The translations under genes were made by a program, and so were the position numbers. A stretch of 64,000 bases of DNA from NCBI GenBank assembly GCA_958296385.1, contig OY282494.1, positions 2,517,537 through 2,581,536 of the forward strand, written 5' to 3'. This DNA comes from an uncultured Dehalococcoidia bacterium. GTDB lineage: Bacteria; Chloroflexota; Dehalococcoidia; Lucifugimonadales; UBA3495. Within the stretch, counting starts at the first letter, position 1. Each line of letters starts with the position of its first letter. The notes beneath the pieces were generated by a model. That model had not been told where the DNA came from and searched no databases. It saw only the letters and a program-made list of their open reading frames with translations. Positions 11,480 to 33,179 of this stretch are shown in pieces.

Positions 11480-12913
11480 GTGCTTATCAAGCGTACCCCG
11501 GACCGTTACGACAAACTGCAAATCCTGGGCGGTATGGCGGCTGCCGACGACATCCTCACCGGCGGCAAGGCCGACGGACACGGCCATACCGTCAACGCCA
11601 AGTTCGCCGCCGGCACCGTGGGCCGCGGCCCCAACCGCATCGCCTACTCCGACCCCGGCAAAAACCCCGCCCCCGGCATCTACAAGGCCAGTATGCCCAA
11701 CGGCAAGAAAATCAACCTGATGCGGGTGATGTTCACCGACTTTTGCAAGATGGACTGCGCCTATTGCCCCAACAGCATTTACGTGCCGCGCAAGCGCTAC
11801 GCTTTCAAGCGGGATGAGCTGGCCGATACCTTTATGGAGCTGCACGGGCGCCTGGCCGTGGACGGCCTGTTCCTCAGCTCCGGCATCGCCGGGGATGGCA
11901 CCAAAACTACCCAGCATCTGGTTGAAACCGTGGAAATCATCCGCAAAAAGCACGGGTTCAAGGGCTACATCCATATGAAAGTGATGCCCGGCGCCAGCCG
12001 CGAGCTGGTCGAAAAGGCGCACCGCCTGGGCAGCCGTCTGTCGGTGAATATCGAAACCCCGGAACCCGATATGATGCGCCGCATCAGCCCGCACAAGGAC
12101 TTGCAGCAGGACATTCTCGACCCGATGGCCTGGATTAACGACCTGACCCGGGAGAGCAGCGGAGGCGCCGTGGGTCAGGCGACGCAGTTTGTGGTGGGCG
12201 CCGCCGACGAGTCCGACCGGCAGATTTACCGCCGGGTTGACCAGATGTACGCCGACTGGAACCTGAAACGGGTCTATTATCCGCCGTTCCGTCCGGCGCG
12301 GCACACGCCAATGGAGGAAAAGCCGCCGGTACACTCCGGCCGGGAGCATCGCCTTTACCAGATGGACTGGCTGCGGCGGGTCTATCAGTTTCCCACCACC
12401 GAGATTGACCTGGCCTTTGACCAAAGCGGCTTTCTGTCGCTGGAGCAGGACCCCAAGACGGTCATCGCGATGGAGAACCTGGACGCGTTCCCGATGGACT
12501 TGAACGCCGTCAGCAAAGACCAGCTGCTGCGCATCCCCGGCATCGGCCCGGTATCCGCCGGCCGCATCATCGAGAACCGCCGCCAGCACAGCATCGACAA
12601 CTGGCGGGACTTGCAGGCGATGGGCGTCGTCCGCAAGCGCGCCTGGCCCTACGTAGTATTCCCCGGCCAGCGCCCGCCGTCCGGCAAACAGCTGCGGCTG
12701 GATATGTTCGGCGAGGCGCAAGACCGGCGGGCTGCCGAATCCGCCGGCGCCGCCCTGCCACCGCCCATATCGTCCAAACTGGCCTCCATAATGGAACAAC
12801 CGGCCGCCTACACCACTACCCCAGACCACGCCTGCATCCCCGGCAGCAAAGGCGCAATGTGCGCCGGCTGCCCCATCAACCCGGCGTCTTTATCAGCAAA
12901 TTATAAAAATTGA
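11480..12913 (+). CDS. radical SAM DNA modification/repair-type protein with C-terminal HhH
   Basis: The [4Fe-4S]-binding CxxxCxxC motif reads CKMDCAYC at about residues 89-96. The surrounding sequence (TDFCKMDCAYCPNSIYVPRK, then LFLSSGIAGDGTKTTQ) matches the radical SAM family usually annotated as a putative DNA modification/repair protein and typically linked to a uracil-DNA glycosylase. A helix-hairpin-helix segment, LRIPGIGPVSAGRIIENR, lies near residue 345, and a second Cys group ends the protein. I prefer the GTG at 11480 (AGGGAG 8 nt upstream) to the in-frame GTG at 11471. No glycosylase gene is adjacent. Instead, PRTase-like and NADAR genes follow. A TTGACA box at 11391 lacks a good -10. 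Confidence 0.88.
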   Translation: MLIKRTPDRYDKLQILGGMAAADDILTGGKADGHGHTVNAKFAAGTVGRGPNRIAYSDPGKNPAPGIYKASMPNGKKINLMRVMFTDFCKMDCAYCPNSIYVPRKRYAFKRDELADTFMELHGRLAVDGLFLSSGIAGDGTKTTQHLVETVEIIRKKHGFKGYIHMKVMPGASRELVEKAHRLGSRLSVNIETPEPDMMRRISPHKDLQQDILDPMAWINDLTRESSGGAVGQATQFVVGAADESDRQIYRRVDQMYADWNLKRVYYPPFRPARHTPMEEKPPVHSGREHRLYQMDWLRRVYQFPTTEIDLAFDQSGFLSLEQDPKTVIAMENLDAFPMDLNAVSKDQLLRIPGIGPVSAGRIIENRRQHSIDNWRDLQAMGVVRKRAWPYVVFPGQRPPSGKQLRLDMFGEAQDRRAAESAGAALPPPISSKLASIMEQPAAYTTTPDHACIPGSKGAMCAGCPINPASLSANYKN

Positions 12914-12975
12914 ACAAATGTTGCAATCCGGGCATTGGCTATGCTACGGTAGCGCCGCTGGACGGAAAACCGCCA

Positions 12976-13953
12976 ATGACGACGGAACGTAACAACCTGC
13001 TGGCCTCTATAGCCGGCACAATCAAGGACTACCGCGCCGGCGAAATCGCCGAGCCTACGCCGGCGCACGTTGACCGCTGGATTAGCCAGTTCGACGATGT
13101 GGTGCAGATTCCTATGCTCCGTGAACTGGACTCCGTGTTCAAACGTACCTACGTATCAATGCCCAGGATGCAGCAATTTCTCGCCGGAGTAGCAGACAGT
13201 TTCCCTTGCGAGTTTTGGCAAGCGGCGCATATCCTCAGCATTCAGCAAAACGGCGGGAGCCAAGCCGAAATTCGCGAATTATTTGGTCACGTCTTGCGAG
13301 AGCGCTGTGGTGCCACTGTAGAATACACGGGCTCTGCCGATGGTGATTTTGTTTATCTTGATGATGCCATTTTCACTGGAGAGCGTGTGCTATATGATCT
13401 TCGGACTTGGTTCCAGTATCAAGCTCCGGCAAAAGCAAACCTTCATATAATGGTAATAGCAGTTCACACGCTAGGCTCATATTGGATTGAAAAGAATCTG
13501 GAATCCAGCAAATCTGGAAAGCAAATCGCCGTGACAACTTGGCGTGGTTCGACATTCGAGAATCGGTTGGTATATCGGAACCAATCAGATGTGCTTTGGC
13601 CTACGGATGGAATCTATCCTGATGGCGGTTTTCAACCTCGCCAGCCTGGATATAAGGGCCCAATTTTTGCTAGCGAGCAAGGGCGCCAGCTACTTGAGCG
13701 GGAATTCTTGACCGCTGGACTCAAGATACGGGGTTTCGCCAATAAGCCCAGCCCCGCACTCAAACCCTTGGGCTTTTCCCAATTCAGATTCAGCCCCGGC
13801 TTCGGTTCCCTGCTCGTAACCTACCGGAACTGTCCCAACAACTGCCCGTTAGCCCTCTGGTACGGTGACCCGTCATATCCAGACCATCACCCTTTGAGCA
13901 AATGGTATCCGTTGTTTCCACGCAAAACTTACGAAGTAGGGCGACTATTATGA
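12976..13953 (+). CDS. phosphoribosyltransferase-like protein
   Basis: The 325-residue product contains DGDFVYLDDAIFTGERVLYDL at about residues 123-143. This fits the PRPP-binding loop (two acidic residues, then TG) of type I phosphoribosyltransferase folds. The N-terminal part (TPAHVDRWISQFDD...IPMLRELDSVFKRTYVS) resembles the PRTase-like proteins found in phage and defence gene clusters rather than nucleotide-salvage enzymes. The ATG at 12976 is preferred over a TTG at 12910 that overlaps the radical SAM stop. Its TGA overlaps the NADAR start (ATGA), so the two are translationally coupled. The middle of the gene (13330-13560) is noticeably more AT-rich than its surroundings, hinting at transfer. 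The family call is moderately firm and the reaction is unknown. Confidence 0.72.
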   Translation: MTTERNNLLASIAGTIKDYRAGEIAEPTPAHVDRWISQFDDVVQIPMLRELDSVFKRTYVSMPRMQQFLAGVADSFPCEFWQAAHILSIQQNGGSQAEIRELFGHVLRERCGATVEYTGSADGDFVYLDDAIFTGERVLYDLRTWFQYQAPAKANLHIMVIAVHTLGSYWIEKNLESSKSGKQIAVTTWRGSTFENRLVYRNQSDVLWPTDGIYPDGGFQPRQPGYKGPIFASEQGRQLLEREFLTAGLKIRGFANKPSPALKPLGFSQFRFSPGFGSLLVTYRNCPNNCPLALWYGDPSYPDHHPLSKWYPLFPRKTYEVGRLL

Positions 13954-14948
13954 CTACCGCAAGCACCGCCGTCGCCAACTGCCAGATTCGGACATACTGC
14001 CGGTCCAGCGCAGCCGTCTTTCTGAAAACCAGAGAGCAGTACGGCGGTCTGTCCAACATGGCCGGCGGTTTTCCTTTGTGCGTGAACGGCGTCGCGATTC
14101 GTTCGTCCGAGGCGCTGTATCAAGCGTGCCGCTTTCCCTATCTGCCGGACGTGCAACGGCTGATAATCGAGCAAATAAGCCCGATGTCGGCAAAGATGAA
14201 AGGCAAGCCGTACCGCCGGGATTCCCGGCCGGATTGGGATAATGTCCGGATCAAAATTATGCGCTGGTGCCTGAGGGTGAAACTTGCCCAGAACTGGGAA
14301 ACGTTCAGCAAGGCCCTGCTGGAGACCGGCGACCTGCCTATAGTGGAGCATTCCCGCCGCGACGATTTCTGGGGGGCCAAGCCCGTAGATGGCCAAACCC
14401 TTACCGGCGTGAACGCCCTGGGGCGGTTGCTCATGCAACTGCGGGAGTGGGTAAAACAAGAGCCGAAGGAAACCTTGCTGCGTGTTGAACCCCTGCCTAT
14501 CGGAGATTTCCTACTCTACGACGACCCAATTGAAGCCATAAACCCGAACCTTGCAGGTAGATATTTGACTCCCGAAGAGCCAAACCAATACACCCAGATG
14601 AACGCCTTTCCATTTGTGGTAGCGGAGCGTTCCAGTGAGTACACAACGATTGATGCTACCGCAGAAGACCTAATCAATATCAACAAGGCCGCCGCCAACG
14701 ACCTGGAAACATTGCCGCACATCGGCCCGAAACTATCCCAGGCAATCATATCCCACCGGGAGGAGAACGGGCCGTTTCAGACTGAACACGACATCGCCCA
14801 AGTGCGCGGCATCAGCAAGAGAACCTATCAGAGAATTGCCGACAGGATAACCGCCGGCCACCTTGCTAAAGTGGATGTCTCGTCAAAAACGCCCGGTATC
14901 GTGGCGTCGCCGAATTCCCAGGCGCTCTTATCTAAAAGCTTTAAATAG
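13950..14948 (+). CDS. NADAR domain protein with C-terminal helix-hairpin-helix
   Basis: The 332-residue protein has a NADAR domain at about residues 20-165. Landmarks are YGGLSNMAGGFPLCVNGV, RSSEALYQACRFP, RPDWDNVRIKIMRWCLRVK, and VEHSRRDDFWGA followed by GVNALGRLLMQLRE. A ComEA-type helix-hairpin-helix module follows at about 241-300 (LININKAAANDLETLPHIGP, then QVRGISKRTYQRIADRI). NADAR enzymes act on ADP-ribose-type derivatives, and some remove ADP-ribose from guanine bases as antitoxins. The HhH part suggests that this one acts on or near DNA. The start overlaps the stop of the PRTase-like gene. Domain calls are firm and the combination is unusual. Confidence 0.88.
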   Translation: MTTASTAVANCQIRTYCRSSAAVFLKTREQYGGLSNMAGGFPLCVNGVAIRSSEALYQACRFPYLPDVQRLIIEQISPMSAKMKGKPYRRDSRPDWDNVRIKIMRWCLRVKLAQNWETFSKALLETGDLPIVEHSRRDDFWGAKPVDGQTLTGVNALGRLLMQLREWVKQEPKETLLRVEPLPIGDFLLYDDPIEAINPNLAGRYLTPEEPNQYTQMNAFPFVVAERSSEYTTIDATAEDLININKAAANDLETLPHIGPKLSQAIISHREENGPFQTEHDIAQVRGISKRTYQRIADRITAGHLAKVDVSSKTPGIVASPNSQALLSKSFK

Positions 14949-17825: not shown

Positions 17826-19076
17826 CTACGCCGCCCGCAACATCCCGGCCAGCGACGCATCCGCGCCTTGCGTCATCAGCTGCGCCAGCGCCATCGCGCT
17901 GAACATCACCACCGACAGCAGGAAGTGCAACTCCATCCGCGCGGCGCCGCGGCAGGTATGGTCCTTTACCCAACCATTCTCAAATCACCAGGCAAAGAAA
18001 CGTTCTACCGCCCATCGCTTGGGGTACAGACACTGCCACTCCGGCGACGCCCGGCTAATTGACCCGCCCAGCGTGTACAGGTCGTCGTCAAAAGCTTCCC
18101 AAACCTCATCATCGCAAACAGTGTAGCCTTTGAAAGGCTCACTACGGCGATGACAGCCTCCGGCCGGACAACGGAACCCGTGGCACCGGGTTGCCAAGTC
18201 AGTGCCGATAAACCCCATTGCCTGGCCGCTCAGGCACCTAGGCTCGCCCTGGAGCGTGTACACGCTGGTTGGGTCCCGGCCCGCCCGGTCTATTCGTGGA
18301 ATCAGCGCCGCCGCGCCCAGCCGGTGGATGAGTTGTACGTTGGCTTTGGCGTCGTAGCCTTTATCGGCCAGGACCACATCGGGCTCAAACCAGTCATAGG
18401 ATTCCGCCGCCCACGGCAGCAACTCACGCAACAACGGACTGTCGTGGCGATTAGCCGGCGACTCGCCAAGCGCAACCGGAAACTGGGTCGGCACGTCCAC
18501 CAGCACGTGAGCCTTCCAGCCATAAATCATCGCCATGCCGTCAGGCGCGGTAGAACGCGGGTCGTGCACCTTGCCCCACGCGGCCTCGTTGTCCCGCGTT
18601 TCCTCGTTTAGCGGATTGCAGTAAGCCGGAACGCCGGTAGAGTCAATGGCGACGACTTTCCCGAAATCGGGGCGAATCTCCTGGACGCCGTTCAAAAGGC
18701 CAACGAGCATGGCGTGCAACACCCACGGGTTGGCCGCCAGTGCGCCAAACACGCGGGAAACAGTAGGACGGCTGGGTATCTCGAGGTCGCGGGGCCAACC
18801 GCAAGCCGCACGCAGAGCCGGGTCATTTCGCAACCGGTCCACAGCGCCTTGGCGACCTTTGACGCCGACGACATAGGCGGTAAGGAAGACCTTGACCAAG
18901 GGAATCCTGGGATAGCGCGGGCGGCCTTTGCCAAAGATGTCGCCCGACCCAAGGTCAGGGCCAAACAGCCGTGCGCAAGGCGTGTAGTCCACCAGCGTCA
19001 GTGCCTGGCCCAAATGGGCCAAGTCAGCATAGTGTTGCGGGAAGACCGCGTTGCGAGTATTATCGCAAACGACCAT
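17826..19076 (-). pseudogene. DDE transposase (IS4/IS5 superfamily) interrupted by an in-frame TGA
   Basis: Minus-strand frame from the ATG at 19076 (AGGAG 9 nt upstream). It holds a DDE triad: VVAIDSTGV, DVVLADKGYDA and KRWAVERFFAW. A TGA at 17985-17987 stops it after FFAW. The same frame then continues as FENGWVKDHTC...MELHFLLSVVMFSAMALAQL to a TAG at 17826, which looks like the genuine C-terminal helix region of such enzymes. So the gene is full length but carries one nonsense codon, most simply a Trp TGG changed to TGA. It marks the left side of the defence island. Exact IS family and terminal repeats not determined. Confidence 0.75.
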
Positions 19077-19189
19077 CAGGGACGCTCCTACAGCCAAGAA
19101 GGGATCCGAACGACCCGGCGCTGGCCCGCAAAGCCGCCCGACGGCCCGCAACCAAGCGCCACCGTGCAGCCGTACACTGGAGGACGCTA

Positions 19190-19657
19190 ATGCCCGGCTT
19201 CCTGCACGTTTTGGATAACGAAACCTTCACCGTAGCCGACCATCTGCGCCGCAACTTGCGCGCCGACGACGGGTTCAATTTCGTCTCCGCCTACTTCACC
19301 ATCTACGGCTACGAACTGCTGGCTGAGGAACCGGAAAGCGTCGGCGCAGTGCGTTGCCTGTTTGGGGACCCAACCTCCACAGAACAGGTGGACCCCGGAG
19401 TACAGGAACCCAAGTCCTTCGAGTTGACCGAGCAAGGCTTGATGCCCAACCTCACGCTGCAACAACGGCAACCGGCGCAGCGGTGCGCGGCTTGGGTTGC
19501 CCGCGACCGCGTGGCTATCCGCTCCGTCAGGCAGTCCAACTTCCTTCACGGCAAGCTGTACCTCACTGATGGGCCGGACGGCGGCGGCATAGTCAGCAGC
19601 TCCAGCTTCACCAGGCGCGGGCTGTGTAGAGGGCGATTGAAACGCCATACAGATTAG
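19190..19657 (+). pseudogene. truncated PLD/HKD-family protein
   Basis: GGAGG 6 nt before the ATG opens a 155-residue frame. It resembles the N-terminal PLD-type nuclease part of large helicase-nucleases: FNFVSAYFTIYGYELLAEE, an RCLFGDPTS strand, SNFLHGKLYL (the HxK of the active site) and SSSFTRRGL. After that the family should continue into an N-rich loop and a second domain. Here it ends abruptly with CRGRLKRHTD, 13 bp before the next gene. I read it as the remnant of a second PLD protein, lost by deletion. It is not a duplicate of the start of the next gene, because the two sequences differ. A functional short protein cannot be excluded. Confidence 0.6.
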
Positions 19658-19670
19658 GCAGGAGACCATA

Positions 19671-22600
19671 ATGCCCAGAATTTTCGACAATCTCAGTCCT
19701 GATACCAAGCTGGCCCCGGCGCTGCAAGAAACGCTGTCCGTCTCCAACCGGGCAGACTTCTGCGTTGGCTACTTCAACTTGCGGGGTTGGAGCGACCTTG
19801 CTCCTTACGTTGACCGCTGGAATCCGGAGGACGGGCCGTGCCGCATATTAATTGGAATGCAGCGTCTGCCGGATTCGGAACTAAGAGAGTCTCTGGCGTT
19901 GCGCAGTGGCCCGCCAGGTATGGACAACGCTACCGCACACCGATTGCGGGTACAGTTGGCGGAGCAATTGCGCCAGCAGTTGACCTACGGGTTCCCTACT
20001 AACGCTGATGAAGCAACGCTGCATCGCCTGATTGAACAGCTCACAGCCAGGCGAGTCATCGTCAAGCTTTTCCTGCGCCACCCGTTGCACGCCAAGCTCT
20101 ACCTGCTGTTCCGGGATGACCCCAACAACCCCATCACAGGCTATCTGGGCAGCAGCAACCTGACCCTGGCCGGCCTGTCACAGCAGGGCGAACTCAACGT
20201 TGACGTACTGGACCACGACGCCACCGGCAAACTGCAGCAGTGGTTTGAAGATCGCTGGAACGACCGCTTTTGCATTGACATCACCGACGAGCTGCTGCAA
20301 ATCATCCAGGAGAGCTGGGCGCGTCAGGACCTGGTGCCGCCCTACCACGTCTATCTCAAAATGGCGTACCATCTTTCCAACGAGGCCCGCGCTGGCATCG
20401 AGGAGTTCAAAATCCCCGGTATTTTCGGCAACCGCCTGTTTGAATTCCAAACCGCCGCCGTCAAAATTGCGGCGCATCATCTGAACCGGCGCAACGGCGT
20501 GCTGATTGGCGACGTGGTTGGATTGGGCAAAACACTGATTGCAACCGCGGTAGCCCGTATCTTTGAGGACGACCTGGGCACCCAAACGCTCATCATCTGC
20601 CCCAGGAACCTCGTTAGTATGTGGGAAGAGTACCGCGACGAATACGGACTGCGCGCCCGGGTTCTGTCAATCAGCCGGGTACTCGGCGAGCTGCCCAACC
20701 TGCGCCGCTACCACCAGGTCATCATTGACGAGAGCCACAACTTGCGCAACCGCGACGGCAAGCGGTACCGGGCAATTCGCGAGTACATCAGCGAGAACGA
20801 AAGCAAGTGCATCCTGCTGTCGGCCACGCCCTACAACAAAACCTACCACGACCTGTCCAACCAACTCCGGCTGTTCATCAGCGAGGAGCAGGACTTGGGA
20901 ATCCGGCCCGAACAAATGCTGCGCAACACGGGCGCAGCGGAGTTCCGGCGTCAGCACCAGGTCAACCCGCGCAGCCTGGCCGCATTTGAGCAGAGTGGAT
21001 ACCCCGACGACTGGCGCGACCTGATGCGCCTGTACATGGTTCGCCGCACCCGCAGCTTTGTCCAGGAGCATTACGCTGCGACTGACCCCGATACGGGCCG
21101 CAAGTTCCTCACTTTCGAGGACGGCAACCGCTCGTATTTCCCAGCGCGGGTTCCCAAAACCGTCGGTTTTCCGGTCAACGATGCTGACCCTGACGACCAG
21201 TACGCCCGGATGTATGCGCCGGCAACCGTGGACGTGATTGAGAACCTGCACCTGCCGCGCTACGGCCTCGGCAACTACGTGCTGGACAATCCAGCCACGC
21301 CGCCGACGGCTGCCGAAGACCGCCAAATCCAGAACCTGGCCCGGGCCGGCAAGCGGCTGATGGGCTTCTGCCGCACCAATCTGTTCAAAAGGCTGGAAAG
21401 CAGCGGCGCCGCTTTCGTCCAGTCCGTAGAACGCCACGCCCTCCGCAACTACATATTCCTCCACGCTCTACATAACGAACTGCCGCTCCCGGTCGGCACC
21501 CAGGACGCCGAGATGCTCGACTCCCGTTTTACCGACGAGGACGTTGACGAAGCGCAAGGCGCGTCCGCCGACCCGGATGACGATGCTGAACGAGATACGG
21601 GCGATGCTACTCGCAACGCCGACAACGCATCCCATTGGACACCGGAGGCGTTTGAGCAGCGCGCGGCGCATATTTATGCGCAATACGATACCCGGTTCCG
21701 GAGCCGGTTCACCTGGATGCGGCATAACTTGTTCCACCCCGACTTGGAAACCGAACTGCAAAACGACGCCGCTGCGCTGCTTGCCCTGTTGCAGCGCAAC
21801 GGGCCGTGGCAACCGGCCCAAGACGCTAAGCTGGACGCACTGCAAACCCTCATCACTGAATCCTACCCCGACCGGAAAATCATCGTGTTTTCCCAATTCG
21901 CCGACACCGTGCGGTATTTGGAAAACGAACTGAAAGGCCGGGGCGTAAGCGCCCTGGCCGGCGTCACCGGCGATTCTCTCGACCCAACGGCAATCGCCTG
22001 GCGTTTCAGCCCGGCCAGCAACGATAAACGGGAATACACTGCGCCGGATGCGGAACTGCGGGTGCTGGTCGCAACCGACGTGCTGAGCGAAGGCCAAAAC
22101 CTGCAAGACTGCGCCATTGTGGTTAATTATGACCTGCCCTGGGCCATCATCCGTCTAATCCAGCGCGCCGGCCGCGTGGACCGAATCGGCCAGACCGCCG
22201 CGGAAATCCTCTGCCACTCTTTCATACCGTCCGACGGCGTGGAGCGCATCATCAATCTGCGGGGCCGGGTGCGGAACCGGCTGCGCGAGAACGCTGAGGT
22301 CATCGGCACCGACGAGGCATTCTTTGAGGACGACCAGGATGACCAGCCCATCATCAACCTTTACAACGAGCAGGCCGGCATACTGGACGGCGAGGCGGAT
22401 GCTGAAATTGACCTCACTTCCCACGCTTACCAGATTTGGAAAAACGCCATTGCCAACGACGCAAGTCTGGAACGCGCCGTTACTACTCTCCCCGACGTGG
22501 TATTCTCGTCGCGCCAGCACCACGGCGACTTGCGCCAGCCGGAGGGTACGCTGGTTTATCTGCGGAACACCGACGACAACGACGCGCTGGCCTACGTTGG

Positions 22601-23096
22601 GCGCGATGGGCAAAGCATCACCGAATCGCCCATCGCAATCCTGACCGCCGCACAGTGCCACCCGGACACGCCGGCGCACCCCCGGCATGAGGAACATCAC
22701 GAACTGGTAGCCGCCGGCGTCAGGCTCATCGCGCAGCGGGAGCGCAGTATCGGCGGGCAGTTGGGCCGGCCCAGCAGCGCGCGCCACCGGGCCTACAACC
22801 GCCTCAATGAATACGCCGCACGCATCAAAGGCCAGCTGTTTGACACCGACGACCTGCGACAAGCCATCAACGACATCTACCGCTACCCCTTGCGCCAGGC
22901 CGCTGTGGACACCCTCAACCGCCAAATGCGCAGCGGCATTGACGACCCCGGCCTGGCCGACTTGGTAATCCGGATGCGAAACGACGACCGGCTCTGCATA
23001 ATGGACGGGGACAGCGACGAAACCCCGGAACCCCGCATCATCTGCTCAATGGGCCTTTTCGACCACGACAACGAGGAAACGCCGGATGGCTGCTGA
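19671..23096 (+). CDS. PLD nuclease-SNF2 helicase fusion (DISARM-like defence protein)
   Basis: A 1141-residue protein. The N-terminal PLD-like domain (about 1-215) has HAKLYLLF at about 139 and GYLGSSNLTLAGL. The SNF2-type helicase follows: Walker A GDVVGLGKT at about 280-288, DESHN at about 353, LSATPYNK, then the C-terminal lobe KIIVFSQFADTVRYLENEL, VATDVLSEGQNLQDC and motif VI QRAGRVDRIGQ near 830. About 220 further residues complete it. PLD and SNF2 are separate proteins (DrmC, DrmD) in DISARM class 1, and here they are one chain. AGGAG precedes the ATG. Its end overlaps the methyltransferase start by 11 bp, so the two are an operon. Confidence 0.88.
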   Translation: MPRIFDNLSPDTKLAPALQETLSVSNRADFCVGYFNLRGWSDLAPYVDRWNPEDGPCRILIGMQRLPDSELRESLALRSGPPGMDNATAHRLRVQLAEQLRQQLTYGFPTNADEATLHRLIEQLTARRVIVKLFLRHPLHAKLYLLFRDDPNNPITGYLGSSNLTLAGLSQQGELNVDVLDHDATGKLQQWFEDRWNDRFCIDITDELLQIIQESWARQDLVPPYHVYLKMAYHLSNEARAGIEEFKIPGIFGNRLFEFQTAAVKIAAHHLNRRNGVLIGDVVGLGKTLIATAVARIFEDDLGTQTLIICPRNLVSMWEEYRDEYGLRARVLSISRVLGELPNLRRYHQVIIDESHNLRNRDGKRYRAIREYISENESKCILLSATPYNKTYHDLSNQLRLFISEEQDLGIRPEQMLRNTGAAEFRRQHQVNPRSLAAFEQSGYPDDWRDLMRLYMVRRTRSFVQEHYAATDPDTGRKFLTFEDGNRSYFPARVPKTVGFPVNDADPDDQYARMYAPATVDVIENLHLPRYGLGNYVLDNPATPPTAAEDRQIQNLARAGKRLMGFCRTNLFKRLESSGAAFVQSVERHALRNYIFLHALHNELPLPVGTQDAEMLDSRFTDEDVDEAQGASADPDDDAERDTGDATRNADNASHWTPEAFEQRAAHIYAQYDTRFRSRFTWMRHNLFHPDLETELQNDAAALLALLQRNGPWQPAQDAKLDALQTLITESYPDRKIIVFSQFADTVRYLENELKGRGVSALAGVTGDSLDPTAIAWRFSPASNDKREYTAPDAELRVLVATDVLSEGQNLQDCAIVVNYDLPWAIIRLIQRAGRVDRIGQTAAEILCHSFIPSDGVERIINLRGRVRNRLRENAEVIGTDEAFFEDDQDDQPIINLYNEQAGILDGEADAEIDLTSHAYQIWKNAIANDASLERAVTTLPDVVFSSRQHHGDLRQPEGTLVYLRNTDDNDALAYVGRDGQSITESPIAILTAAQCHPDTPAHPRHEEHHELVAAGVRLIAQRERSIGGQLGRPSSARHRAYNRLNEYAARIKGQLFDTDDLRQAINDIYRYPLRQAAVDTLNRQMRSGIDDPGLADLVIRMRNDDRLCIMDGDSDETPEPRIICSMGLFDHDNEETPDGC

Positions 23097-26000
23097 CATT
23101 CTAACTCTCCGCCCGTACCTACAGGACTTTGACCTCACCGGGCTGATGGTCGAGGGGCTGGGCTGGAACCACCATCAAGGCGCCCCGGTTGCCGTTGCCG
23201 CCGACGGGGAGACCTATGACTTGCACCCCGTCGCGGAGAAAGCCGGCTTTGCCGTCTATCGTTGCAGCCCCCAGGCGGACGGCGCCATTCCGCTCCAGAA
23301 CGTACGGCGCCAGATTGAAAATCGGGTAGCCCAGGCCAATTACGAGCATCTGATTATCTTTGTGGATGCCGCCGAAACCCGGCAAATCTGGCAGTGGGTC
23401 AAGCGCGAATCCGGCAAACCGCCCGCCATCCGCGAATTGTCTTACGACCAGGGCAAAACCGGAACCGCTCTGCTGCAACACTTGCGCGGCATTGAGTTCA
23501 CCCTGGCCGAGGAAGCCAGCCTCGGAATCACCGACGTCACTGCAAAGTTCCGGCAATCGCTGGACGTTGAGCGCGTCACCAGGCGTTTCTACGACGGGTT
23601 CCGCAAAGAGCTGACCGCTTTCCAGAAGTTCATCGCCGGATTCACCGAGCAGGGCGACCGGGACTGGTACGCCTCGCTGATGCTGAACCGGATGATGTTC
23701 GTCTATTTCATCCAGAAGCAGGGTTTCCTCGACGGCGATGAGCACTACCTACGCAATCGCTTGCAGCAGGTTCAGCAACAGGACGGCCCCGACCGTTTCC
23801 AGCGGTTCTATCGCGGTTTCCTGCTGCGCCTGTTTCACGAAGGGCTGGGCCGGCCCGCCGCCAACCGGCCCGCCGAACTCGTCGACCTGCTGGGCAAGGT
23901 GCCTTATCTCAACGGGGGCATCTTTGACCCCCACACGCTGGAAAAGGAAAACCCGGACGTCAACATCCCGGATGCCGCGTTCCAGCAGATTTTCAAGTTC
24001 TTTGACCAGTACCAGTGGCACCTGGACGACCGTCCTCGGGGCAACGACAACGAAATCAACCCCGACGTACTCGGCTACATCTTTGAGAAGTACGTCAATC
24101 AAAAGCAAATGGGCGCCTATTACACCAAGGAGGACATCACCGGCTACATCGCCCGCAACACCGTGCTGCCCCGCCTGCTGGAAATGGCGCAAACCGAATG
24201 TCCCATCGCTTTCGGCCCCGATGGCGGCGTGTGGCGTCTGCTCCAGGATGACCCCGACAACTACATATACCCATCGGTTGGCCACGGCGTGGCCTGGGAC
24301 TATACTCCCGAAAGTGTCGCCGGCCGGGAGGAACCCCTGGCCCTGCCGGAGCATATCGACGCCGGCTTGGACGACACCGCCCAACGCGCCGACTGGAACC
24401 AGCCCGCGCCGGCCGAGTACGGCCTGCCTACCGAAACCTGGCGCGAGCTAATCGCCCGACGCCAGCGCTACGCGGATGTCCGCGCGCAACTGGCCGCCGG
24501 CGACGTGCAGAGCGTCAACGACCTCATCACCCTCAACCTGGACAGTGAACGGTTCGTCCGGGATGTCATCGTCAACAGCGAAGGCCCGGAACTGCTGCGC
24601 GCCATCTGGAACGCCCTGACCCGAATCTCCGTCCTCGACCCGGCCTGCGGCTCCGGCGCCTTTCTATTCGCCGCCCTCAACATCCTGGAACCGCTGTACT
24701 CCGCCACCTTGCAGGCAATGCGCGGCTTCCTGGCCGACTTGGAAACTGCGCAGCGCCCGCGTCTGCCCAACGCGCTCCAGGACTTCCGGAACATCCTCAA
24801 CACTGCCGGCCAGCACCACAGCGAGCGGTACTACATCCTCAAGTCCATCATCGTCAACAATCTCTACGGCGTGGACATTATGGAGGAAGCCGTCGAAATC
24901 TGCCGCCTGCGTCTGTTCCTCAAACTGGCCGCCCAACTCGAAACCTACGACCAGATTGAACCCCTCCCCGACATCGACTTCAACATCCAGGCCGGCAACA
25001 GCCTGGTCGGTTTCACCTCCGCCGCCTCCGTCCGCAAGGCTATGGAAATGGACGTCAAAGGCCAGCGCCGGATGATGAGCGCTAGCGACGAAGCTGCCTT
25101 GACTAGCATTGAGGCCAAAGCAGCGGAAATTGCCCGCGAGTACCACTACTTCCAGCAAATTCAGACCGAATACGGGATGGGCTACGCCGAGCTTGCCGAA
25201 TCCAAGCAGAGCCTGCAATCCAAACTGAACAACCTGCGCGACGAACTGGACGCCCTGCTCGCCAGAGAATACGGGGTGGACGCAGACCAGGCCACAGCAT
25301 TTCAACAATGGCAAGCCAGCCACCAACCCTTTCACTGGTTCGTTGAGTTCCACAGCATTATCCACTATGGCGGGTTCGACGTGGTGACTGGCAATCCGCC
25401 CTACGTGCAACGCAGAAACATAAGCCAGCAATATACCCCCAGGGGATTGCTCACCGCTGCCACTCCGGACATTTACGCGATGGTCATGGAACGGGGTATC
25501 AGCATACTCCGCAATAACGGATGGACGGGAATGATTGTTCCGTTGAGCATAACGTTCAACGACCAATTCGCCGCATTGCGCCAGCATTTGTACGGACAGT
25601 GCAGCAACAACTGGTTTGCATCTTTCGGCAGGATTCCGTCCGCCCTATTCAGCTACGACACGCGGGTACGGAACACGATACACCTGGGGCAAAAGTCACC
25701 CGCCAGTGCCAAGCAGAACTTCACCACCCGCCTGCACCGATGGTTCGATAAACGTCGGCCGACCTTACTCGGCGAAGTCCAGTATGCCGAGTTCCACCCG
25801 GCCGCGTTCAACGGAAAGATTCCCAAAATTGGAAGTGCCCGATTGCTGCAAGCACTGGAAAATCTTGCATCAGACCACATCGGATCCTTCGGACAAGATC
25901 TCCTGAATATAGGTGAACCCCTTTACTTCAGGACCAACGCCTACAACTACCTTGCCTTTGCTCAACAACCGCCGCCGACTTACGACGAAAACGGAAATCG

Positions 26001-26415
26001 CTTGCCGGCTACCAACTGCCATACTATACACTTCGCCAATCAGCAGGAACGGGACATAGCTATGACTCTGGCCAACGGGAAATTGATGTTCCTATGGTGG
26101 GCTGGACTCGGTAGCGATTTCAATCTGCCGCAGAAGCTGGTTGCAGACGCACCCTTCAGGAGCGCGTACCTCAGCGACGAACAGCGCCAAAACATCATCG
26201 ACGCGTTACCAGAGCTTGAGCAGGCTATGAAAACCAACTTGGTCTTTAAGTTGAACGCCGGCAAAAAGGTAGGCAACTACAACCTAGCGAAATGCCGCCA
26301 GGTCACGGACAAGACCGACAGGATATGGCTTGAAGCACTAGGCATGGGCAACGTTTGGAACGATATTGAGACGGAACATTCGCTTGTTGTCAGAACCTCG
26401 TTTGCTGATGAATAG
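23086..26415 (+). CDS. Eco57I/PglX-type adenine-N6 DNA methyltransferase (DrmMI-like)
   Basis: A 1109-residue protein. SAM-binding motif I, LDPACGSGAFLFAALNIL, is at about residues 516-533. Catalytic motif IV, TGNPPYVQRRN, is near 769. The long N-terminal part (LNRMMFVYFIQKQGFLDGD, GYIFEKYVNQKQMGAYYTKED) matches class I restriction-modification methylases of the Eco57I/PglX/DrmMI type. The C-terminal third would be the target-recognition part. It probably methylates host DNA so that the helicase-nuclease proteins of the cluster spare it (inference). Overlaps the PLD-SNF2 gene. A 107-bp gap separates it from the DUF4338 gene. Confidence 0.9.
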   Translation: MAADILTLRPYLQDFDLTGLMVEGLGWNHHQGAPVAVAADGETYDLHPVAEKAGFAVYRCSPQADGAIPLQNVRRQIENRVAQANYEHLIIFVDAAETRQIWQWVKRESGKPPAIRELSYDQGKTGTALLQHLRGIEFTLAEEASLGITDVTAKFRQSLDVERVTRRFYDGFRKELTAFQKFIAGFTEQGDRDWYASLMLNRMMFVYFIQKQGFLDGDEHYLRNRLQQVQQQDGPDRFQRFYRGFLLRLFHEGLGRPAANRPAELVDLLGKVPYLNGGIFDPHTLEKENPDVNIPDAAFQQIFKFFDQYQWHLDDRPRGNDNEINPDVLGYIFEKYVNQKQMGAYYTKEDITGYIARNTVLPRLLEMAQTECPIAFGPDGGVWRLLQDDPDNYIYPSVGHGVAWDYTPESVAGREEPLALPEHIDAGLDDTAQRADWNQPAPAEYGLPTETWRELIARRQRYADVRAQLAAGDVQSVNDLITLNLDSERFVRDVIVNSEGPELLRAIWNALTRISVLDPACGSGAFLFAALNILEPLYSATLQAMRGFLADLETAQRPRLPNALQDFRNILNTAGQHHSERYYILKSIIVNNLYGVDIMEEAVEICRLRLFLKLAAQLETYDQIEPLPDIDFNIQAGNSLVGFTSAASVRKAMEMDVKGQRRMMSASDEAALTSIEAKAAEIAREYHYFQQIQTEYGMGYAELAESKQSLQSKLNNLRDELDALLAREYGVDADQATAFQQWQASHQPFHWFVEFHSIIHYGGFDVVTGNPPYVQRRNISQQYTPRGLLTAATPDIYAMVMERGISILRNNGWTGMIVPLSITFNDQFAALRQHLYGQCSNNWFASFGRIPSALFSYDTRVRNTIHLGQKSPASAKQNFTTRLHRWFDKRRPTLLGEVQYAEFHPAAFNGKIPKIGSARLLQALENLASDHIGSFGQDLLNIGEPLYFRTNAYNYLAFAQQPPPTYDENGNRLPATNCHTIHFANQQERDIAMTLANGKLMFLWWAGLGSDFNLPQKLVADAPFRSAYLSDEQRQNIIDALPELEQAMKTNLVFKLNAGKKVGNYNLAKCRQVTDKTDRIWLEALGMGNVWNDIETEHSLVVRTSFADE

Positions 26416-26522
26416 CCCTGAGAATCGTGGGCGCCCACATTGTGCTCGCGAGGGCCGGAGCAGCCTGGATACCACTGGTGCAACTGATTGGCAAGTCATA
26501 ACTAGCAAAGGACAAAATCAAA

Positions 26523-27707
26523 ATGACCTTGCTCGCCGAAATCGTCAAAACCGAGGTTACGCCTGGCGATAATGCCGCTGACATCGCCCGCGGCGTCAAG
26601 GCCCCGCTGGCCGACCGCATCCGGGCCGCCAACGCCGCGATGGCCCGGCTGCAAGCGCAAGGCGAGTTCCACGCGATGCACCACGCCGCGCGCAACGCCG
26701 CCTTGTCGGCCGCGCAGTCCTGGATTCAAAAAGCCTGGCCCAAACGTTCCCACTGGTTCGCGGATGGCCGCGACATCACGCCGGAAAACATCGTCCCCAA
26801 GCTGGTGGAGGTGGCCACGGCAGAGCAGCGCGACCTGTTCCGCCTCGCCCGTTACACCTGGTCACTGCCCTACTCCAAAGGCTACGGCCGGCGATTGCGA
26901 TTCCTGATAATTGACGCCGGCCATGATAAGCTCATGGGCGTGCTGGGCTTACAGTCGGCCCCCATCAACTTCCCGCCCCGGGACCGCAAAGTCACTTACC
27001 CGGAGGGCCGGAAAGTCGCCCTGGTCAACCAGACGATGGATGCCTATACGCTGGGCGCGGTGCCGCCCTACAACCGTCTGCTGGGCGGCAAGCTGGTAGT
27101 CTGCGCCGCCGCCAGCCGGGAAATCGTGGACGCCTACGGTAAAAAGTATTCCGGTGCAACCACCTGGATGGAGCAGGGGGTAATACCGGCGCACCTGGTA
27201 ATGCTAACCACCACCAGCGCCTTCGGACGCAGCAGCATTTACAACCGGGTGACGTACCGGGATGCCGGCGCCGGCCGGACGCGGCAGCTGGCGGCGCCGT
27301 TAGGCTACACCAAAGGCTACGGCAACTTCCACCTGCACGAGGTCTATCCCGACATCAAAAAGTTCCTCATCCAGGCCGGCTACAACGCCAACCAGGGCTA
27401 CGGCCGCGGTCCCAAACCCGTGTGGCAAAACATCAGCAAAACGCTCACCATGCTGGGCATGGAGCACCAGGGACTAAAGCACGGCATCCCCCGCCAGGCC
27501 TGGGCCATCCCCCTGGCCCACAACGCCTGGGATTACCTCAGCGGCCAGGACAAAGAACCCGAATACTACGACGTCCCCTTCGAGCAGCTGGCCGCCTGGT
27601 GGATGGAACGGTGGCTACTGCCGCGCGCCCAACGCATCACGGATTGGCGTGATTGGAGCAGAGAATCAGTGCTACAATCAGTTACAGTGGACACGATGAC
27701 GCCCTGA
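26523..27707 (+). CDS. druA: DUF4338 / Druantia DruA-like protein
   Basis: A 394-residue protein. The core, residues about 118-280, carries the DUF4338 pattern: RLRFLIIDAGHDKLMGVLGL, RDRKVTYPEGRKVALVNQTM, DAYTLGAVPPYNRLLGGKLV and TTSAFGRSSIYNRV, then a GYTKGYGNFHL strand. DruA is the marker protein of Druantia type I phage defence, where it works with the large DEAD helicase DruE. Its own activity is not firmly known. AAAGGA lies about 10 nt before the ATG. A DruE-like gene follows 27 bp downstream, which strongly supports the assignment. The rest of type I Druantia (DruB, C, D) is absent. Confidence 0.82.
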   Translation: MTLLAEIVKTEVTPGDNAADIARGVKAPLADRIRAANAAMARLQAQGEFHAMHHAARNAALSAAQSWIQKAWPKRSHWFADGRDITPENIVPKLVEVATAEQRDLFRLARYTWSLPYSKGYGRRLRFLIIDAGHDKLMGVLGLQSAPINFPPRDRKVTYPEGRKVALVNQTMDAYTLGAVPPYNRLLGGKLVVCAAASREIVDAYGKKYSGATTWMEQGVIPAHLVMLTTTSAFGRSSIYNRVTYRDAGAGRTRQLAAPLGYTKGYGNFHLHEVYPDIKKFLIQAGYNANQGYGRGPKPVWQNISKTLTMLGMEHQGLKHGIPRQAWAIPLAHNAWDYLSGQDKEPEYYDVPFEQLAAWWMERWLLPRAQRITDWRDWSRESVLQSVTVDTMTP

Positions 27708-27734
27708 ACCGGGACGGATACCGGGGTGAAGAAA

Positions 27735-30700
27735 ATGCAATTCACGCCTAACGAAGCCATCGATCACCTCAAAGAATCCCTCGCGTCTTACCTGGAATCG
27801 CAATACCGCATCTCGCACCCGCTCGTTTTCGAGGAACGGGCCGCGCTGCTCAGGCAACGTGGCGTGATAGCGCAAGATCCTTTTATAGAGGCGACGCCGG
27901 CCTTTGCGACCGCACAATACTTGCGGGAGCTGGAGCAGCAGTACCCTGATGTCGTGCCCTATCGGTTGTCCGAATTGGTGGAACACGGACTCCCGTTGGA
28001 CCGCTTCCCGCTGTACACTCACCAAGAGGAAGCCATCCTAGCCAGCTTTGGCGAATCCGGCAATTTACTGGTTGCCACCGGCACGGGCTCCGGCAAGACA
28101 GAGGCGTTCGTCCTGCCTATTCTGGCCAGGATTCTCAAAGAAGCTCGCACCTGGCAAGCGCCTGCAAGCGCACCCAGCGCGGGGCGATACGATCCCGATG
28201 AGGGAACTTGGCAGCATTCCCGCCGGCACGAAACACGCCCGGCCGGGCTCAGAGCAATCATCCTCTACCCAATGAACGCGCTGGTCCATGACCAAATGTC
28301 GCGGCTGCGACGCATCCTGGCATTGGGCGGTTCCCCGGATTGGCAACGGCAGCATCTCAACGGCAACCTAATCCATTTCGGTATGTACACCAGCATGACC
28401 CAGCCTACCCGAGGGCCGGGAGACCCCTCAAAACGTCAACAGTTTGAAGAGCATCTATTGCATCTGAACGAAGAATGGGAAAGTCTGAACGCTCAATTGC
28501 AGGAAACCGGCAACTGGCCGGCCGTGGGTGGCCCGGAAATGCTGTGCCGGTGGGACATACAAGCCGCGCCGCCGGACATCCTGGTAACAAATTACGCCAT
28601 GCTGGAGTATATGCTCATCCGGCCAATAGAAAACCCCATCTTTGAAGCCACGAAGCAGTGGCTGGAAGGCGGCGACGACCGCGTCATTACGCTAGTCCTG
28701 GACGAAGCGCACACCTACACGGGCGCAAAGGGAACGGAAGTGGCCCACCTGGTTCGTCGTCTCAAGGAAAGGCTAGGGATAGCGCCTGATTCCGGGAAGT
28801 TCCGGGCAATCGCAACCAGCGCGTCAATACCCGCAGCGCCAGGCGCTGAAAAACAGCTAACTCGGTTCACATCAGACCTGTTCGGAGAGCCGGCAGACAG
28901 TTTCACAGTAATCAGCGCAAGCACGTCCGACAGTTCCCCCGGAACCCGTAATCCAGGCCCCCGCTCGTTGGAAGCGTTCCGGGAATTCCACGACGCTTTT
29001 AGTCAGAGCGCCCCATGGCCCGGTATAGCCGGACTTGCACAATCCCTAGACTTGAGCGCTCCAAACAGTGACGAAGACCCGCAGGTAGCCCTTTACCAAC
29101 TGCTGGAGGACAACGAAGACATTAAATGGGTACGGGCCAGAACGGCCCGAAACGCCACCAGACTCTCGGAACTTGCGAGTGAGTGCTGGCCACACCATAG
29201 CGACGCGGCAGAACGAGAACGCGCCACCGCCGGTCTGTTGGCTGCCGGAAGTTTCGCGCGTCCTACGGCGTTGCCGGACACCCCATCCATCTTGTCGATG
29301 AGAATCCACGCTTTTTTCCGCGGCGTGCCGGGGTTCTGGGCGTGCTTAAACCCCAACTGCCCGGAAATACCTGCGGCCCACCAGGGAGACCGGCCGGCTG
29401 GAAAAATATACACTGACCCACGACCTTGGTGCTCCGAACAATGCGGCTCACGGGTTCTCGAACTATTCTCGTGCCGTAAGTGCGGACTGCTTTTTGCCGG
29501 CGGTATCCCGGACAACGGGACCGGGAGCCTTTGGCCGTGGAGCGACGATTTTAGCGGTGATTTTTCGGACCACCATACGCGCGACCTCAGAAACTTCCGA
29601 ATTCTCGGCCTGGAACAACCATACGACGACTATCCCGTCGAGTGTCGCTCAATCAAAACTACGCTGGTTACAAACGAACAGGATGCTTACGCTCGTCCCA
29701 CCTTCGCCGTACCACCGTCCACCGACAATGCTGGAAACGAGGTCAGTCCATTCCCAAACCAATGCCCAAGATGTCAGAATTATCGTACTCCAAACGGCGA
29801 ACGCGAGGTGGTTGAACCGCTGAGGACCAGAGGGCCACGGTCCATCTCCGTAGTCGTCGAGGATACGCTGCGCGTACAGCCGGCCACTGTCGGGGCTGAT
29901 AACAATTGGCGACGCAAGGCCCTGGTATTTTCCGACTCGCGACAAGACGCAGCTCTGCTCGCCGCGGACCTGCGAAATGACCATAGACACGATCTGTTTC
30001 GGCAAGCCCTCTATCGTGTTCTGCATACGTGCCCGGCTTGCAACGGGGCCGGCCGTATTACGAAAGAAGCGCCCTACCGAATCGGCCGCGAACTCTCGGC
30101 CACCGAGGCCGTGTGCCAAGCGTGCAATGAAACAGGGTACACAACCCATCCATCCCCTATCGGATACCCAGAGTTGCGTAACAAGGTAATAGAACTCCTG
30201 ATAGACAGAGCAATCAACCCCACCGACGGCCAGTTACGTGACCCGTTCAAGCGACTGAGCGATGAGCAGGGCGCGGTATATCAAGAGGCAAGCCTGGCCT
30301 TCGATCTCGCAGCGCGCCGCGAAATCGCACAAGAGGATTTTGGATTGGAACCCTTGGGCCTGGCCATGTGGTCAATACCCCTACCGGAAAATACCGGCCA
30401 GTTCGAGCCGCTCACACAGGATGAGACAAGCTCCTTCCTACGCATTGTTGCCCGAATCTTGGCAACAGAGAACATTCTGCTTCCGCCGGAACCGGCGAAG
30501 CCTTGGGAATGGCCGTTTGACGACGACCGTATCCAGCCCTACGAAAAGCAAAGGATGATTCCCGGTTACAGACGCATCAGCGAGACCGTCATACCGTACA
30601 ATCTACGACCCCACCGGAAACTGGGTCGCTACGTCGGGGCAGTTGCCCAAACACTTTCAGACCAGGGCCGTATCGCTGACGTCGAACAGTGGCTGAAAGA

Positions 30701-33179
30701 ACTGCATTGGCTATTGTGGAAGGCCTTGAAAGGGTTAAAAGTCCTAACCAACGCAGGACGACGCATCGGCAAAGAGGTGCCACAAGGCATCCGCATTGAT
30801 GGATTCGAGTTACACCCGGTTGGCGATACCGTGTTTCGGTGTCGCTCGTGCCGACACGTGATGGGCGAGGTCCTGCTTGGAGTGTGCTACCGATGCGGTC
30901 AACAGGCTGAACAAGTTCCGCCGTCATCAATTCAGAACTTCTTCCGTCGCTCAGCAGCGTTCGCCACTCCCGGCTCCGACTACCCGGACCCGTATCAAGT
31001 ACAGGCGATTGAACACACGGCCGCCGTCGACCGCGTAGAAGCCCGCAACATTGAGCGATGGTTCCAAGATTTGTTCCGTGAGTCGGAACAGCCGGAAGAC
31101 CACCGAATCAACGTTCTCTCAGTCACTACCACCATGGAGATGGGAATCGATATTGGGAGCTTGTTGAGCGTCGGAATGCGCAACGTCGCGCCCACCGTCG
31201 CCAACTACCAGCAACGGGCTGGTCGCGCCGGTCGTCGTGGCAGTGCCGTGGCTACCGTAGTAACGTATGCGTTAGATCGCAATCATGATCAGTACTACTT
31301 CCACAGGCCCAAGGAAATTGCGTCAGAACCGCCGCGTGTTCCTACCTTGTACCTTTCGAATGAGGTGATTGCCAGACGGCACGTGCGCTCCCTTGTTTTG
31401 GGAGAATTCTTTCTGCAACGGATTTCGAACGAGGCAAACAGCAGCCTTTTCAATGCCTGGGGAACTGCGGAAGTGTTCCGGGAAGGTGCCGGACGAACAG
31501 CATTGACGGACCACATTCGGACAAACCAGGATGCATTGCTAAACCGGGCCCGGGAGATCGTGGCTCAAGACTTGGCAACAGACCTGCGGAAGTGGCTGGA
31601 GGAATTACCGCAGGAAGTCGACGCCGTAGCCCACAATGTTAACGCCAACGACGACCTACTGGTATCGTTGATTCAGGCGGGCCTTATTCCCAAGTACGCT
31701 TTCCCTGTGGACGTAGTCAAGCTGTCCATACCTGCTGATGACGATCAGGAGGACACCTACGAATCCCAGGATTTCTACTCTGGCATCGCCAGGGACTTGC
31801 GTATAGCCCTCACGGAATACGCACCCGGCGCTGAAATCATACGAGGGAAATTCCCGGAGACCTACATCTACCGAGTGGCCGGGGTTTATGACCCGTCGGA
31901 CAGTCAGCCCAATTACAGGCCCGCCGGCCAACTACACGAGTGTCGTCGCTGCCGGGCCACAACACTGACGACGTCCAATGATGTCGGCTCCCTTGACAGT
32001 TGCCCGGAGTGCGGTACCGACGATGTCCTGACCGTGCCGTACCTCAGACCGCCAGGGTTCACAGTAGACGCGGCCATTCCCGACTCTGGAAAAGTAAAGT
32101 ACCAATCAGGTGGGCGTGAGCGTGTCGGCTTCACACCATCCGCTCAACTCTTGGTCGGCACCAGCGCAATCACCAGTGGATTACCCAACTCGCAATTCGC
32201 TCCCGAACTTTACTCATTCGTGCATACAGGGGACCTGTTCTTGCGCAACATGGGACGAAATCGTGAGCGCCCCGGGTTCCTACTGTGCCCTGACTGCGGC
32301 CGCCTTCTCGACCCGGATCAACCTGGTAGGCATACCTACCCTGCCCACGTTCCACCACATCGGGGACGCCGGATGGGCCACAGAGCCGGCGATGATTGTC
32401 CCAACACAAACGACTTTGGCAATCAGGTAGTACTGGGTCACCGGTTTGCTTCAGAGGTGGTTCTTCTTGCCATCGCTATGCCCGCTTTCCTTGACGCTCC
32501 CATAATGGATCCCTCTGGCAAAGCTTTGTGGTATTCGTTCGGAACGCTGATGAAGGAATCAGCCACGAAAGTGCTGCAAATCAGTCCCGATGAAATTCGG
32601 GTCGGAGTTCGACCAATACGGGATGCGCTGGGCCGGATTCAGGGAGAGGTTTTCATCTATGACGATGTACCTGGCGGCGCTGGCTACGCTCGCGCGATAT
32701 ATGACAACCTCCAAGAGGTGGCTGAACTGGCGCTGGAGATGGGACACAATTGCAACAACGATGATTGCAGTGGCGCTTGCTACCACTGCTTGCTGGGTTA
32801 TTCGAACCAGTACGTTCACAACCTTCTGGATCGGAACCTAGGCGTCACTATCCTGGATTACCTGTTGAATGGACGACGACCAGCGCTGCCTAGCGGACTC
32901 ACCAAGTCCGCGATTAATGGGCTGACTGAATATACGCAATCCGACTGGATCGTGGCAGACCCTAGTCAGACCCCGCAACCGTTCGACGTTGTTCTCTCAT
33001 CAGCACATAACTCACGTGTCGGCGTACAAGTAGTTCATCCACTATCAGCCAGGCCAACACGCGCGGAACGCCAGCAACTGCAACACAGCACCGGGGTCAC
33101 AGCACTAACCTACACAAGTTTTGACCTACTGCGAAGGCCCTTCTGGGTAGCTAATGACTTGCTCAGCACCCAAGCGTAG
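27735..33179 (+). CDS. druE: giant DEAD-box helicase with DUF1998 (DruE/DrmA-DrmB-like)
   Basis: An 1814-residue protein. N-terminal helicase lobe: Walker A ATGTGSGKTEAF near residue 115, DEAH box LVLDEAHTYTGAKG near 322. Second lobe: TTTMEMGIDIGSL followed by YQQRAGRAGRRGS near 1150-1165. Several zinc-knuckle-like Cys pairs lie between the lobes (CRKCGLLF, CPACNGAG, CQACNETG, CRSCRHVMG). The C-terminal DUF1998 zinc cluster, CNNDDCSGACYHCLLGY, is near 1672-1688. Length and architecture fit DruE, while DISARM splits the same functions between DrmA and DrmB. I chose ATG 27735 (GGGGTGA 5-6 nt upstream) over GTG 27726. Codon use is less GC-biased than in the flanks, suggesting transfer. Confidence 0.85.
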   Translation: MQFTPNEAIDHLKESLASYLESQYRISHPLVFEERAALLRQRGVIAQDPFIEATPAFATAQYLRELEQQYPDVVPYRLSELVEHGLPLDRFPLYTHQEEAILASFGESGNLLVATGTGSGKTEAFVLPILARILKEARTWQAPASAPSAGRYDPDEGTWQHSRRHETRPAGLRAIILYPMNALVHDQMSRLRRILALGGSPDWQRQHLNGNLIHFGMYTSMTQPTRGPGDPSKRQQFEEHLLHLNEEWESLNAQLQETGNWPAVGGPEMLCRWDIQAAPPDILVTNYAMLEYMLIRPIENPIFEATKQWLEGGDDRVITLVLDEAHTYTGAKGTEVAHLVRRLKERLGIAPDSGKFRAIATSASIPAAPGAEKQLTRFTSDLFGEPADSFTVISASTSDSSPGTRNPGPRSLEAFREFHDAFSQSAPWPGIAGLAQSLDLSAPNSDEDPQVALYQLLEDNEDIKWVRARTARNATRLSELASECWPHHSDAAERERATAGLLAAGSFARPTALPDTPSILSMRIHAFFRGVPGFWACLNPNCPEIPAAHQGDRPAGKIYTDPRPWCSEQCGSRVLELFSCRKCGLLFAGGIPDNGTGSLWPWSDDFSGDFSDHHTRDLRNFRILGLEQPYDDYPVECRSIKTTLVTNEQDAYARPTFAVPPSTDNAGNEVSPFPNQCPRCQNYRTPNGEREVVEPLRTRGPRSISVVVEDTLRVQPATVGADNNWRRKALVFSDSRQDAALLAADLRNDHRHDLFRQALYRVLHTCPACNGAGRITKEAPYRIGRELSATEAVCQACNETGYTTHPSPIGYPELRNKVIELLIDRAINPTDGQLRDPFKRLSDEQGAVYQEASLAFDLAARREIAQEDFGLEPLGLAMWSIPLPENTGQFEPLTQDETSSFLRIVARILATENILLPPEPAKPWEWPFDDDRIQPYEKQRMIPGYRRISETVIPYNLRPHRKLGRYVGAVAQTLSDQGRIADVEQWLKELHWLLWKALKGLKVLTNAGRRIGKEVPQGIRIDGFELHPVGDTVFRCRSCRHVMGEVLLGVCYRCGQQAEQVPPSSIQNFFRRSAAFATPGSDYPDPYQVQAIEHTAAVDRVEARNIERWFQDLFRESEQPEDHRINVLSVTTTMEMGIDIGSLLSVGMRNVAPTVANYQQRAGRAGRRGSAVATVVTYALDRNHDQYYFHRPKEIASEPPRVPTLYLSNEVIARRHVRSLVLGEFFLQRISNEANSSLFNAWGTAEVFREGAGRTALTDHIRTNQDALLNRAREIVAQDLATDLRKWLEELPQEVDAVAHNVNANDDLLVSLIQAGLIPKYAFPVDVVKLSIPADDDQEDTYESQDFYSGIARDLRIALTEYAPGAEIIRGKFPETYIYRVAGVYDPSDSQPNYRPAGQLHECRRCRATTLTTSNDVGSLDSCPECGTDDVLTVPYLRPPGFTVDAAIPDSGKVKYQSGGRERVGFTPSAQLLVGTSAITSGLPNSQFAPELYSFVHTGDLFLRNMGRNRERPGFLLCPDCGRLLDPDQPGRHTYPAHVPPHRGRRMGHRAGDDCPNTNDFGNQVVLGHRFASEVVLLAIAMPAFLDAPIMDPSGKALWYSFGTLMKESATKVLQISPDEIRVGVRPIRDALGRIQGEVFIYDDVPGGAGYARAIYDNLQEVAELALEMGHNCNNDDCSGACYHCLLGYSNQYVHNLLDRNLGVTILDYLLNGRRPALPSGLTKSAINGLTEYTQSDWIVADPSQTPQPFDVVLSSAHNSRVGVQVVHPLSARPTRAERQQLQHSTGVTALTYTSFDLLRRPFWVANDLLSTQA

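Follow-up and report, generated by a model that had tools for sequence, protein, structure and literature searches.

The window analysed here, a stretch of 64,000 nucleotides from a 3.3 Mb genome assembled as a single contig, contains four intact genes, all located on the plus strand and all with their catalytic motifs present, together with two features that precede them:

17985-19151, minus strand: IS transposase (DDE_Tnp_1, domain call) that borders the cluster
18971-19657, plus strand: N-terminal remnant of a different HKD/PLD protein, outside the four-gene set (translation; weak blastp match to a haloarchaeal HKD-helicase, E 1e-6)
19671-23096, plus strand: PLD-SNF2, a fusion of an HKD/PLD nuclease with an SNF2 (RapA-like) helicase, 1141 aa (Pfam PLDc_2, SNF2-rel_dom and Helicase_C; PADLOC C3a139 'HKD+Snf2'; motifs)
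23086-26415, plus strand: MTase, an Eco57I/PglX-like adenine-N6 DNA methyltransferase with a C-terminal target-recognition domain, 1109 aa (Pfam Eco57I; PADLOC REase_MTase_IIG PDLC03628, 884 bits over residues 9-1067; fold match of residues 924-1087 to CamA/PglX/MmeI)
26523-27707, plus strand: DruA (DUF4338), a GNAT-fold protein of the DruA-NurA-HerA operon lineage, 394 aa (PF14236, E 6e-77; PADLOC DruA1, 308 bits; fold; tree)
27726-33179, plus strand: DruE, a YprA/MrfA-type SF2 helicase with an MZB (DUF1998-type) Zn domain, 1817 aa (PADLOC DruE1, 948 bits; Pfam DEAD, Helicase_C and MZB; tree)

The first two genes, PLD-SNF2 and MTase, share 11 nt, while gaps of 107 nt and 18 nt separate the MTase gene from druA and druA from druE, respectively. 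HAKLYLLFRD (at 140), GDVVGLGKT (at 280), DESH (at 353) and RAGRVDRIGQ (at 832) were found in PLD-SNF2, DPACGSGAF (at 518) and NPPY (at 770) in the MTase, and GTGSGKT (at 119), DEAH (at 326) and RAGRAGRR (at 1164) in DruE. Judged by sequence matches, the PADLOC scores for DruE, DruA and the IIG-type MTase place these assignments far above chance, and motifs, Pfam and PADLOC together bear out a preliminary description of this DNA, which had recognized the four gene families on one strand with overlapping or close ends. The beginning of the first gene, which had been set at 19190, lies at 19671, and the preceding stretch belongs to the remnant of the different HKD protein, which adjoins the IS transposase on the opposite strand. 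A scan for promoters and terminators gave a site count that was not above that of shuffled sequences. Flanking genes in the window are defence-like too and include those for PRTase-CE and PDC-M32A; at 8339-14948 the gene for the PDC-M32A candidate defence protein is followed by NYN, radical-SAM/HHH and PRTase-CE genes and one more gene, forming an upstream defence-like cassette.

PLD-SNF2 and the MTase constitute a strict two-gene unit that occurs nearly always without DruA and DruE. In each of the 20 Chloroflexota loci retrieved for PLD-SNF2 relatives, the MTase gene was adjacent to the PLD-SNF2 gene, with the same order in 19 and the reversed order in one, and the pair was also present on five of five plasmids (Anabaena, Pelobacter, Synechocystis, Rhodococcus and Pseudarthrobacter) and in four of four viral contigs with a nearly full-length MTase match. 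In these 20, five and four loci the two genes adjoined or were separated by no more than about 0.7 kb, and DruA/DruE lay near the pair only in the locus L175; L030 represents one further joined case. In the tree, the 26 rows of PLD-SNF2 proteins fall into a single family (SH-aLRT 99) with the fusion present throughout, which is far from ArmA and BrxHI and joined to them only by very long branches.

The MTase contains an Eco57I domain and was matched by PglX models with E values of 1e-11 to 1e-23, below their cut-offs. Its residues from about 924 to 1087 resemble the target-recognition regions of CamA, PglX/BrxX and MmeI (VIA Z 8-11), the model as a whole being poor with a full-length pLDDT of 49. 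This C-terminal region appears mosaic among relatives, since in an alignment (A5) of the window's 23086-26415 with L208, L209, L210 and L212 the window resembles L210 and is unlike L208 and L209, with the N-terminal half being conserved, a pattern that suggests an exchange of sequence specificity. The N-terminal domain (residues 1-138) was modelled with a pLDDT of about 80 and an alpha-beta-beta-beta-alpha-beta order, and neither a clear PD-(D/E)XK motif nor a convincing fold match was found for it in sequence and model. A stand-alone protein similar to this N-terminal domain only (28%, residues 11-211) is encoded just downstream of the PLD-SNF2/MTase pair at L210:13145-14335. Synechocystis slr6095 was considered and rejected as the homologue of the window MTase, being the type I M subunit; the MTase homologue on Synechocystis pSYSX could presumably be M.Ssp6803IV (GAm6AGGC).

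The window DruE is one of 12 members of a compact clade with full support, which lies in the Druantia branch beside type I (SH-aLRT 98-100% on the branches that hold it) and away from the ARMADA I and II references, which were taken from plasmids (L198, L206, L203 and L204). Its nearest relatives come from uncultured Dehalococcoidia and a Caldilineaceae genome, which makes Chloroflexota the most likely origin of the window; among 294 sampled genomes of the class no close homologue was found beyond the window's own. Solved structures that match DruE by sequence are large DEAD/DEAH helicases and YprA. In most members of the clade, and in the partial locus L048, DruA is encoded within about 1.5 kb on either side of DruE. 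It precedes DruE in the window, L029, L030 and L050, and in the four closest DruE relatives it is located downstream and represents another DruA lineage than that of the window. A DruK-like PD-(D/E)XK nuclease was found in four DruE loci (L029, L030, L045 and L048); in the window there was no relative of DruK, and PADLOC detected no DruB, DruC or DruD on either side of druA/druE. Moreover, DruE and DruA occur without this PLD-SNF2 family in the fetched flanks of L028, L029, L042, L043, L045, L046, L048 and L050, and the modules beside DruE relatives differ, being BREX-like in L045, BrxC/D in L050, another IIG MTase in L047, and in L042 a PglXI/HmaB-like MTase, which is located immediately 3' of DruE-DruA (L042:16807-19065).

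The window DruA groups (100/100) with DruA proteins that adjoin NurA- and HerA-like genes, and the other DruE-linked DruA proteins of the DruE clade form one group with those of Druantia type I (97/96). From the DruA and DruE trees it follows that the two proteins of the window differ in lineage; the DruA native to this group of DruE proteins has apparently given way to one of the DruA-NurA-HerA lineage. No NurA or HerA remnant was found in the window, and a search with the window DruA as the query returned no viral relatives. An operon of DruA, NurA and HerA without DruE was observed in eight of ten Chloroflexota DruA loci tested (L031, L032, L034, L035, L036, L037, L038 and L039), and represents a candidate defence system that has DruA in common with Druantia.

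No solved structure matched DruA by sequence. Its AlphaFold model (pLDDT 74, pTM 0.74) has a GNAT fold, as the top 50 VIA matches were all GNAT-fold proteins (Z 8.5-9.9), which is consistent with a published analysis that called DUF4338 a GNAT domain (PMC10853773). Foldseek alone gave nothing below E 0.001 for this model, with acetyltransferases leading the list. The conserved LLGGKL (186-191) follows the fourth core strand of the model and may thus correspond to the position where GNATs bind the CoA pyrophosphate. Mom of phage Mu (8bv8), a DNA adenine modifier, was among the best structural matches, with a Z of 9.7 and the longest alignment (178 residues, rmsd 5.1); no homology between DruA and Mom was found by sequence (hhalign probability 0.2%), leaving a likeness at the level of the fold alone.

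Both pairs were found in five genomes, and in three of these they are less than 10 kb apart. In the window they stand in tandem on the same strand; in G265/G309 (L030/L051) they are divergent and 2.35 kb apart; and in G305 (L047/L175) they are separated by 5 kb with other genes between them, and the 5' end of druE is overlapped by 4 nt by the gene of a second, unrelated IIG-type MTase (L047:6825-10001). In the other two genomes, G302 and G304 (DruE loci L043 and L046), the PLD-SNF2 gene is more than 1 Mb from DruE. Relative to uniform placement, three of five within 10 kb has a P of about 2e-6, the proper null being the clustering of defence genes, which could explain the proximity. In the three joined loci, the PLD-SNF2 proteins do not belong to one clade. 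That of L030 does not group with that of the window, and G302 and G305 possess close PLD-SNF2 copies away from DruE. The preliminary description had proposed one hybrid system and a search for its four-gene order in other genomes. No locus other than the window was found to have the same-strand order, each pair exists without the other in most genomes, and the joined cases show three layouts, none of which favours that proposal. It had also named, as the contrary outcome, pairs that occur independently and are joined only here by chance; the independent occurrence was confirmed, but the pairs are not joined only here, because L030/L051 and L047/L175 also hold both within 10 kb.

Among named systems, ARMADA (Bell et al., 2025, preprint; PMC12458937) is the nearest relative of the window locus and the closest published plan. 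It combines an SNF2 helicase, a PglX-like MTase and a YprA helicase, and its type II protects E. coli. Like ARMADA I/II, the window encodes a YprA-family giant helicase, together with possible counterparts of the SNF2/BrxHII-like helicase and the PglX-like MTase, and archaeal type I has the same order; however, the description of ARMADA is without DruA and names no HKD domain on ArmA, while the window DruE is situated in the Druantia branch and the window PLD-SNF2 in a distant, separate family. Membership in ARMADA was rejected on the position of the YprA helicase outside the ARMADA clade in the DruE tree. The locus differs in the lineage of its DruE and in its additional DruA and HKD parts, and may therefore function in an ARMADA-like manner although it is not a member. 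Druantia type I shares DruA and a DruE of the neighbouring clade with the window, which in contrast is without DruB, DruC and DruD and has a DruA of another lineage; type IV of PADLOC was rejected, as it consists of DruE, DruF and DruL without DruM/DruG (PMC8565338). DISARM class 1 likewise possesses an SNF2 helicase, an adenine MTase, a YprA-type helicase and an HKD nuclease, but in the window the DrmA/DrmB split is replaced by a single 1817-aa protein with DEAD, Helicase_C and MZB that groups with Druantia, and the HKD domain is fused rather than forming a separate DrmC. The curated NCBIfam cut-offs were not reached (DrmD NF038317, 151.5 of 610 bits; 'phospholipase D-like anti-phage', 131 of 1100; PglX, 83 of 500), and descent from DISARM, from which PLD, SNF2 and MTase had initially been derived, was rejected on these unmet cut-offs; PLD-SNF2 belongs to a family of its own in which the fusion was already in place. 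Type-2 BREX-related (BR) systems (Rakesh and Krishnan, 2026; PMC12839542), in which an HKD-endonuclease on the SNF2 N-terminus and an N6-MTase are proposed to restrict unmethylated DNA, share the HKD-SNF2 fusion and N6-MTase with the window, whereas their DUF499 ATPase and DUF3780 were not seen among the flanking window proteins scanned. Finally, the MTase matches the PADLOC model of type IIG R-M enzymes over its whole length, but unlike these enzymes it always has a separate motor-nuclease gene beside it.

The layouts, the trees and the island context of both pairs therefore lead us to favour two autonomous defence modules, which adjoin in tandem within a defence island and have undergone an exchange of DruA, as the probable explanation of the locus over one integrated four-gene system, which we consider unlikely. 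In such a system, convergent like ARMADA, methylation would mark self, DruA and DruE would open or load foreign DNA, and PLD-SNF2 would cut it. The location of all four genes on one strand with an overlap and short gaps is operon-like, may reflect co-transcription and counts against two separate modules; the kinds of genes and their order SNF2-MTase-YprA equal those of the archaeal type I of ARMADA, exemplified by Natrinema (L198; PMC12458937), and the pairs are near each other in three of the five genomes with both. In addition, some relatives possess a DruK nuclease that is missing from the window, where DruE might make use of the PLD nuclease instead, which would also speak for cooperation. 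However, the layout is different in each of the three joined loci, the trees give no sign of co-inheritance, and the window DruA is not of the DruE lineage. Rather improbable, too, is a specific form of integration in which the GNAT-fold DruA couples the MTase/HKD-SNF2 pair to the Druantia helicase. This would be a single four-protein restriction system that arose independently along the lines of ARMADA, and DruA would serve as an adaptor that can be exchanged among motors, either DruE or, in related operons, HerA-NurA.

The lineage mismatch with DruE, and the absence from the window of the native DruA that is normally located downstream of DruE in the closest kin, would also agree with DruA being a stray insertion, a remnant of a DruA-NurA-HerA operon without a function with DruE, in which case only PLD-SNF2 and the MTase would be active and DruE would be orphaned. 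Yet this is very unlikely, given that DruA and DruE are both full length with intact motifs and only 18 nt apart, that DruA also precedes DruE in L029, L030 and L050, and that neither NurA nor HerA has left a trace in the window.

If the locus comprises two autonomous modules, the first would represent an ATP-dependent restriction-modification-like pair, by likeness to the HKD-SNF2 and N6-MTase systems mentioned above (PMC12839542). Via its C-terminal target-recognition domain the MTase would place N6-methyladenine as a mark within a short sequence; DNA without this mark would be cut by the HKD-SNF2 motor-nuclease as it tracks along. The restriction-like logic of the preliminary description is supported for this pair. 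The second module would be a Druantia from the type I branch reduced to two genes: its GNAT-fold DruA may recognize or acylate a feature of the target DNA, and DruE, its giant YprA helicase, may unwind phage DNA during replication. By analogy only, such a two-gene system is backed by the findings that DruE of Druantia type III acts on ssDNA-containing replication intermediates (PMC13192584) and that a two-component Druantia is sufficient (PMC13316683), and both modules would presumably confer antiphage activity.

Overall, the window locus has the appearance of a defence island in which parts have been mixed, and not of an established new four-gene machine, and serves as a warning that four co-directional defence genes may still not form one system. 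A minimal Druantia that consists of DruA and DruE alone forms a coherent clade, and DruA apparently changes its helicase partner, which is either DruE or NurA-HerA. Should recognition or modification be the task of DruA, this would hint at what Druantia type I senses, for which the papers that we found gave no explanation. A composite of another kind was observed at L045:1621-17881, where a BrxHI-like helicase, PglZ, BrxA, DruE, DruK and DruA are encoded co-directionally in a BREX-like/Druantia arrangement.
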